The notes under the pieces were generated by a model that saw nothing but the letters and a program-made list of their open reading frames with translations, made no database searches and was not told the origin of the DNA. Below are positions 7,306 through 13,080 of a DNA stretch of 35,704 nt, one piece after another. Origin of the DNA: Flavobacteriaceae bacterium (GTDB lineage: Bacteria > Bacteroidota > Bacteroidia > Flavobacteriales > Flavobacteriaceae); contig JAOZTK010000004.1 in NCBI GenBank assembly GCA_029942185.1, positions 1 through 35,704 of the forward strand. The letters are read 5' to 3'. A program made the translations under genes and the position numbers. Numbering within the stretch: the stretch's first letter is position 1; each line of letters starts with the position of its first letter.

Positions 7306-7716
7306 TTATCCTCCGTTATAAACTACAAAGTTACGAGGCGTTTCGTACAAAGTAATTTTTAGTTTTAGTTTTTCGGGAATATATGGGCGTAATCTCTTCC
7401 AAATAACCACTGAAATATTTTCTGAGGTTGGATTCAATTCCTTAAATTCGGGAACTTGAATGTTGAGGTTTTTGTGATCAAATTCATCTTCAATTTTTTC
7501 TTTTATCAATTCTTTGAGTCGTTTCATATCCATCACAAAACCTGTTTGCAAGTTTATTTCGCCGGTAACTGATACTATTAATTCATAGTTATGTCCGTGA
7601 AAATTCGGATTGGCACACTTGCCAAAAACATCTTCATTACGATCGCCCGACCATTCGTTATTATACAATCTATGGGCAGCGTTAAAATGAGCTTTTCTAC
7701 TAACAGTTACTATCAT
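7306..7716 (-). CDS. queD: 6-pyruvoyltetrahydropterin synthase / QueD family protein
   Basis: Converts dihydroneopterin triphosphate either to 6-carboxytetrahydropterin (queuosine route) or to 6-pyruvoyltetrahydropterin. Zinc ligands are visible as H15 (FNAAH) and H40/H42 (FHGHNY). The catalytic Cys is C34 (FGKCANPN), the Asp-His pair is D80-H81 (FDHKNL), and the pterin-binding Glu is about E125. The FGKC.NPN.HGHNY and TSEN blocks resemble animal PTPS as much as E. coli QueD. The ORF track begins at a TTG (7743); I prefer the internal ATG at 7716, which gives 136 residues and begins MIVTVSRKAHFNAAH, as expected for the family. No other queuosine gene is nearby, so the product is uncertain. 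Confidence 0.85.
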   Translation of the reverse strand: MIVTVSRKAHFNAAHRLYNNEWSGDRNEDVFGKCANPNFHGHNYELIVSVTGEINLQTGFVMDMKRLKELIKEKIEDEFDHKNLNIQVPEFKELNPTSENISVVIWKRLRPYIPEKLKLKITLYETPRNFVVYNGG

Positions 7717-7788
7717 GTGGCTAATATAAGTATCCGTTTTCAATTATCAATATATAAATTTAGAAAATGAAAAACTGTAGACTGTTAA

Positions 7789-12292: not shown

Positions 12293-12324
12293 CTGTGAAA
12301 CGAGCATTTCAAATGCTAACACAG
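12293..12324. promoter_or_regulatory. Nested palindrome between DCC pseudogene and ABC operon (candidate operator)
   Basis: AGCATTT-C-AAATGCT (12303-12317) is a perfect 7+7 palindrome. It is flanked by a second, slightly off-centre inverted pair, CTGTG (12293-12297) and CACAG (12320-12324). On the minus strand the palindrome contains TTTG, followed after 19 bp by TAAATGTA, a weak match to the Bacteroidota -33/-7 promoter reading into the ABC operon. A repressor bound here could control the exporter. Inference only. Confidence 0.4.
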
Positions 12325-12373
12325 AAAAATAGCGTATGCCATATGTTACTTTTAAAAAACAATATTAAAACAT

Positions 12374-12789
12374 ATGCAACCTACTACTAAAAAAGCGATT
12401 GTTTTATTTGATGGTGTATGTAACTTGTACAATGCCTCTGTAGAATTTACACTAAAACACGATAAAAAACATCACTTCATTTTTGCGGCTCTACAATCAG
12501 ACGTCGCAAGAGATATTTTGTTACACTATCCTAAAGAATTCACAAAAAAAGACAGCATTCTTTTAATTAAAAATAAAAAAATTTATTCTGAATCAACCGC
12601 AGTTCTTCTTATTGTAAAAGAATTTAATGGAATTTGGAAACTCTTTCTAATTTTTTGGATAATTCCAAAATTCCTTCGCGATAATGTTTATAGATTTATA
12701 GGTTTATAGCAAAATATCGATATCGATGGTTTAGTAAAAGCGCTGTTTGTTACTTCCTCAACAATACAATTGCAGATCGTTTTTTATAA
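12374..12789 (+). pseudogene. Frameshifted DCC-family (DUF393) thiol-disulfide oxidoreductase-like gene
   Basis: The first frame (12374-12709) encodes 111 residues that match the N-terminal two thirds of the DCC/DUF393 family (IVLFDGVCNLYN..., then ...DNVYRFIG) and stops early. The missing C-terminus is present in another frame from 12703: FIAKYRYRWFSKSAVCYFLNNTIADRFL, ending at TAA 12787. The break is an imperfect 8-bp tandem duplication, tagattta/taggttta, at about 12691-12706. Removing one copy restores VYRFIAKYRYRWF, which fits the family. The family motif CNLC is also altered to CNLY, losing the second redox Cys, and the terminal Cys block is degenerate. A disabled or strongly modified gene. 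Its restored end overlaps the convergent DUF6787 gene by 6 bp. Confidence 0.75.
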
Positions 12790-13080
12790 CTGTTTTTTAG
12801 TCAACAAACGAATTTTTATTTTAATAAATTTTGTAAAGAATGCTCGCTGTCCAAATATAACGCCCCACACATATAAAAGCACTGTATAAATTGGTAGTAT
12901 TAAAAGGACGAAAACGAGCAATTTAATAAGGAAAGAAGTTTCATCATTTATTCCTATAAGTTTATTAATGAATCTATGGACATATAAGGTTGAGAATCCT
13001 GTAATTGCAAACACGACCAAGATTAATACAACTTGAAAGTTGTTTGTAATTTTCCAATGTCTTTTTAATTTATCCCACAT
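12784..13080 (-). CDS. DUF6787-type small membrane protein
   Basis: A 98-residue protein with two hydrophobic helices (about residues 17-37 and 49-75), an N-terminal MWDKLKRHWKI and a basic C-terminus (KIKIRLLTKKQL). The pattern of W-K-I-x-(S/N)-N near the start, ITGFSTLYV in helix 1 and WGVIFGQ..FF after helix 2 matches the Bacteroidota family that I recall as DUF6787. Function unknown. It lies between the symporter gene and the disrupted DCC gene. Its last codons overlap the restored end of that pseudogene. Confidence 0.75.
   Translation of the reverse strand: MWDKLKRHWKITNNFQVVLILVVFAITGFSTLYVHRFINKLIGINDETSFLIKLLVFVLLILPIYTVLLYVWGVIFGQRAFFTKFIKIKIRLLTKKQL

Follow-up and report, generated by a model that had tools for sequence, protein, structure and literature searches.

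Two groups of described systems bear on the locus analysed here. The first is the DCC1-like thiol-disulfide oxidoreductase family (PF04134, formerly DUF393), whose gene is present in 117 of 121 sampled genomes of the bacterial family and whose members carry a CxxC redox pair after Asp-Gly and a C-terminal segment with conserved Arg, Trp, Gly-Lys and Cys. The second comprises the small repeats dispersed through bacterial chromosomes, among them the short dispersed repeats and MITEs covered by two reviews (PMC10969869, PMC2229807), the REP elements with their RAYT (Y1) transposases (PMC3733652), and the TAACTGA direct repeats of Beggiatoaceae and some Bacteroidetes (PMC4679880).

The window, i.e., the whole 35,704-nucleotide stretch analysed, is contig C4 of genome G000, a draft of 2.2 Mb in 204 contigs that gene content and relatives assign to the Flavobacteriaceae. 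In a profile search, PF04134 has a single match in the whole genome, an ORF of 111 aa that scores 75 bits against a curated cut-off of 27.8 and covers positions 1-103 of the 113-position profile, whereas the congeneric proteins cover 1-113. The features of the gene are as follows:

12374-12709, + strand: truncated DCC1-like (PF04134) ORF, 111 aa
12428-12430, + strand: TAC (Tyr) codon replacing the second Cys of CxxC
12687-12710, + strand: array of three 8-bp TTTATAGN units (N = A, G, C) containing the frame break; two unit-lengths in relatives
12709-12789, + strand: what is left of the DCC C-terminus, out of frame (26 codons plus the TAA stop)
12784-13080, - strand: convergent DUF6787 gene (PF20584, 81.7 bits), overlapping the remnant's end; ortholog in G006

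The ORF shares with the family the profile match, the DGVCNL motif and the first 105 residues, and differs from it in having Tyr as its second Cys (CNLY) and in holding the segment with Arg, Trp, Gly, Lys and Cys out of frame only; the protein is a degraded PF04134 member. We read 12374-12709, with reasonable confidence, as the 5' four-fifths of what was once a complete DCC1-like gene, whose function has recently been lost or is being lost, and which bears a third array unit added by slippage, a separate change to CxxY, and an element inserted at its start codon. Structural context for the thioredoxin-like fold expected of the family is limited: the model obtained for a full-length relative has a mean pLDDT of 67, too weak to place the lost segment; its PDB matches, among them glutaredoxin, thioredoxin and GST chains, all fall short of E <= 0.001; and a search by sequence for solved structures returned none.

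The ORF now begins inside a short dispersed element, the parts of which are:

12295-12379, + strand: dispersed element copy of about 80 bp at the ancestral DCC start codon (covariance model R1, 80.3 bits, E 1.8e-15)
12340-12347, + strand: 5' arm of the helix (CATATGTT), covarying in 106 copies
12369-12376, + strand: 3' arm of the helix (AACATATG), its last three bases being the DCC ORF start codon

The left end (12295-12301) carries the old start context GTGAAAC and the right end the new ATG (12374-12376). Comparison with G004 shows conservation of TTTAGCTACATTTACG upstream and of the coding stretch CCTACTACTAA, with about 80 extra bases between them in G000; the element is missing at the corresponding site of G004 and G001 and from the DCC genes of the other congeners, which leaves G000 as the only filled case. 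A similar pattern is found at guaA and coaD, where the element occurs in G004 only and the orthologs found in other congeners are empty (for guaA in G005 this rests on R1, which finds no copy in that locus). Such empty sites are good evidence for an insertion, here of a hairpin element of about 80 bp placed precisely on the GTG with which the DCC gene used to start; the old start context is kept at the left end, and the right end supplies a new ATG in the 3' arm of the helix.

The stretch 12295-12379 recurs across the genus in BLAST searches, and R1, a covariance model built from 18 aligned copies, finds 142 copies at E <= 0.001 in seven congeneric genomes (between 7 and 65 in each), copies at E <= 1e-5 in 35 of 151 genomes of the family and others in several further Bacteroidia families, all counts coming from a search whose first pass may miss copies. 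Of the copies examined in context (88), 85 terminate in a start-type codon and 71 finish precisely on the ATG that opens an ORF of at least 60 aa; inner units of tandem arrays with a period of 87-88 account for many of the others. The same placement holds for 27 of 28 copies in other genera of the family (ORFs of at least 77 aa) and for most copies in other Bacteroidia families (seven loci, two of them identical and perhaps mis-binned). The two identical loci, L318 and L320, agree in the element as well as in the gene that follows it, and their genomes are placed in separate families of the class; contamination or mis-binning of one draft is the probable cause. The host genes, which we take from their N-termini to include guaA, coaD, murQ, a xerC/D-like recombinase gene, etfA and purE, are unrelated to one another. 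A few orthologous genes carry the element in two or three species, as expected of older or selected insertions.

The consensus runs from (A/G)TGAAAC GAGCATG... through a conserved ATGAYTAATAGCGAAC block to the helix CATNTGNN ... NNCANATG, followed by AAA. Over 106 copies, 94.4% of cells at the helix positions pair, against 83.9% in shuffled alignments, with double changes at all eight pairs and 83 double-changed cells where 24.6 are expected; this alignment was fitted to the helix structure, and its counts lean towards the helix accordingly, although covariation is also present in an unfitted alignment. None of 500 shuffles reached the observed values, and the signal is destroyed when the partner is slid by 1-3 columns. 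A conserved peptide encoded by the upstream ORF of the element (MKRACQILTHKGM...) was considered and rejected: 316 non-synonymous and 85 synonymous changes were counted where the expected numbers are 313.3 and 87.7 (a ratio of 1.04), and a stop closes the frame after 2-5 codons in many of the copies from other genera. The ends read CGAGCATG... and ...ACATATGAAA and form no terminal inverted repeat of the MITE kind, the sole consensus helix lying internally in the right half. Both ends bear ATGAAA-like hexamers, which might represent a target-site duplication; the one on the right does not always match the target, reading ATGACA at guaA and ATGCAA at the DCC gene, and it may on that account be borne by the element itself.

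Several further observations concern individual copies. Three-copy tandem arrays with a period of 87-88 lie at L073 1500-1769 (G004:C50) and L051 1402-1592 (G006:C195), preceding an xer-type recombinase gene and murQ. Some copies contain an extra palindromic stretch in the loop of the left hairpin, resembling an insertion of a second small repeat; examples are L051 (TCCCGATAGCTATCAGGA, about 1417-1436) and the longer copies of G006:C146 and G006:C215 (107 nt). Within the window, 7682-7772 gives a weak second R1 match (21.2 bits, E 0.012) and is possibly an eroded copy.

Taken together, the evidence leaves evenly balanced our proposal that 12295-12379 belongs to an undescribed, Bacteroidia-wide mobile family that inserts at ATGAAA starts, leaving the old start at one end and providing a replacement start in a covarying hairpin at the other, such that genes survive and their translation comes under the control of the element. 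Its novelty is provisional: no description was found in the literature searched, subscription papers and ISfinder lying outside that search, and no Rfam family reaches threshold at the window's copy of the element or at its other copies. Start-codon placement is weakened as proof that starts are recognised, because 10 of the 12 [AG]TGAAAC sites outside genes already lie at possible gene starts; a target preference combined with the purging of intragenic copies could suffice to concentrate the element there. The alternative that 12295-12379 is a conserved cis-regulatory leader of a regulon, and no inserted mobile repeat, has in its favour the strong covariation of the helix, the nearly constant position at start codons, the orthologs filled in two or three species and the spread over several Bacteroidia families; it is nevertheless unlikely in view of host genes as unrelated as guaA, coaD, murQ, etfA and the xerC/D-like gene, of guaA and coaD being filled in G004 alone, of arrays of three tandem copies, and of a copy number that varies from 7 to 65 within one genus.

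If the element is mobile, single-stranded or structured nucleic acid may be what is recognised during its spread. A connection with REP/RAYT systems was examined and rejected: none of the 15 Y1_Tnp loci of the genus gave an element match better than E 0.24, and a stretch of about 1.5 kb around each Y1_Tnp gene is free of the element. No mobilising enzyme was found in a search for an autonomous partner that covered the Y1_Tnp genes. At the level of the mRNA, the helix would hide the new start codon. In Flavobacterium johnsoniae, pairing close to the start codon lowers initiation and an A at position -3 raises it (PMC6847099); since the element has C at -3, it probably lowers translation of the adjoining gene.

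Returning to the DCC gene, the three array units start at 12687, 12695 and 12703 and read TTTATAGA TTTATAGG TTTATAGC; the aligned sequences of G004 and G001 are 8 bases shorter here, and relatives hold at most two unit-lengths, partly eroded. The stop of the 111-aa ORF (TAG, 12707-12709) falls inside the array, and the frame 12709-12786, ending at 12789, translates as AKYRYRWF...RFL, the C-terminus of the family. Alignment with five congeners and conservation scored over 96 DCC proteins of the family indicate that the remnant keeps the Arg, Trp and last Cys positions and has Ser for the conserved Gly; among the residues cut off by the truncation, the Arg is conserved in 95, the Gly in 90 and the Cys in 94 of the 96 proteins. 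An earlier sequence-only reading of this DNA had proposed a DCC-family gene broken by an 8-bp tandem unit, with a downstream frame fitting the family C-terminus, and each part of that proposal is borne out by the profile match, by an extra unit present in no relative and by the five-congener alignment. The tandem pair it described, TAGATTTA (12691-12698) followed directly by TAGGTTTA (12699-12706), is in place and represents the array 12687-12710 in another register. The gene's start, remade by the element at 12295-12379, went unremarked in that reading.

DCC frames are open and full-length in all five congeners that carry the gene (G001, G002, G003, G004, G006), and none of them has the short form; the gene was not found in G005, a genome that is 56% complete. 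Across the congeners sampled the truncation is thus specific to G000. Replication slippage on an existing pair of 8-bp near-repeats would have produced the third unit. The sequence and the relatives show that this unit put the rest of the gene out of frame and cost the protein its conserved C-terminal part; DCC function has probably been lost recently, or is being lost, in this lineage. The element insertion would have taken place at some point, probably earlier, because the copy at this site has diverged.

Evidence for the timing of the break comes from a codon model over six species. On the G000 branch, omega for the codons before the break is 0.08, against a background of 0.09; omega = 1 is weakly rejected (2dlnL of 4.6 for the upstream part and 3.3 for the remnant, fixing omega at 1 lowering the likelihood by 2.3 and 1.6 units, respectively), the test on this branch being weak since synonymous sites are saturated. 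A loss of purifying selection, for which the earlier reading proposed a test, is not clear on the G000 branch: the data weakly suggest constraint over most of it, with relaxed selection possible during part. Since the sequence on either side of the break seems largely constrained, the break probably happened recently, and a late frameshift in a still-working gene appears to be the simplest reading.

One alternative is that the frameshift is an error of assembly or consensus, or a minority allele, with the gene intact in most cells. The draft state in 204 contigs and the mostly constrained flanks speak for it; it is improbable, however, because the three units end in different bases (A, G and C), where an assembly stutter would yield exact copies, and because the insertion is of 8 bases and is no homopolymer slip.

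A functional short protein with a single Cys and a dispensable C-terminal segment is a more doubtful possibility still. The first 105 codons do retain nearly every conserved residue at an omega of 0.08, and Tyr at the second Cys position recurs in the open frame of G004; against this, the lost segment contains positions conserved in 90-95 of 96 relatives, the short form occurs in no congener, and G004 has also lost Gly14, Asp30, Ala76 and Pro98, which looks like decay and not like a new function. The phase-variable state suggested by the sequence-only reading, for which tandem 8-bp units whose number changes the frame would be suitable, is very improbable, since three imperfect 8-mers form no hypermutable tract, relatives have at most two partly eroded unit-lengths and no intermediate, and enzymes of the DCC kind are not known as typical phase-variable genes.

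The replacement of CNLC by CNLY noted earlier is real (TAC at 12428-12430), Cys being present at this position in 94 of 96 family proteins and Tyr in only two, those of G000 and G004. Its interpretation as decay linked to the frameshift is not supported: G004 has CNLY with an intact frame, and G006, the nearest relative, has CNLC; Tyr thus appeared at least once without any frameshift, so that, as far as these sequences indicate, the loss of the Cys and the frameshift are separate events and the former is no by-product of the latter. Descent of CNLY from an ancestor shared with G004 was considered and rejected, since G000 is joined to the Cys-bearing G006 in both the rpoBC tree (bootstrap 100) and the DCC-gene tree (support 0.98); these trees call for two origins of Tyr, or for a single origin followed by reversal in G006. 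Three genes of the neighbourhood give mutually discordant trees, so some recombination is possible.

The neighbourhood differs within the genus. The DUF6787 gene adjoins the DCC gene in G006 as well, lying between the DCC and dicarboxylate symporter genes in G000 and G006 and being absent from that interval in G004. The DCC gene of G004 itself (L005, G004:C8:15357-15686) has an open frame that has lost the near-invariant Gly14, Cys19, Asp30, Ala76 and Pro98; its omega of 0.19 does not differ significantly from 0.08, and it is likely to be a second, independent case of decay in the genus.

As gene loss, the DCC case is ordinary, and the useful correction is the separation of the Cys loss from the frameshift. 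The element is of more interest. If mobile, it would be a repeat able to multiply in a genome by taking over start codons while the genes themselves survive; as many as tens of unrelated genes in one genome would then stand behind the same start-codon hairpin, in bacteria that do without Shine-Dalgarno sequences. For annotation, it could mislead start-codon calls and yield short upstream ORFs that look conserved.

Among known systems, the short repeats and MITEs of bacteria (reviewed in PMC10969869 and PMC2229807) resemble the element in being short, non-coding and present in many copies, with empty and filled sites, hairpins and tandem copies; unlike them, the element has no end-spanning terminal inverted repeat, sits at ATGAAA starts, carries its own start codon in a conserved helix and is linked to no transposase. 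With REP elements and their RAYT (Y1) transposases (PMC3733652) it shares the character of a small, hairpin-bearing, multi-copy repeat, whereas its length (about 80 bp against 20-40), the lack of a visible GTAG/CGTC tag at its ends and its absence from the vicinity of Y1_Tnp genes set it apart. The TAACTGA direct repeats (PMC4679880) offer a parallel in position, being found a short way ahead of the start codons of genes unrelated to one another; those, however, are heptamer arrays, whereas the element described here is a hairpin of unrelated sequence that brings its own start codon.
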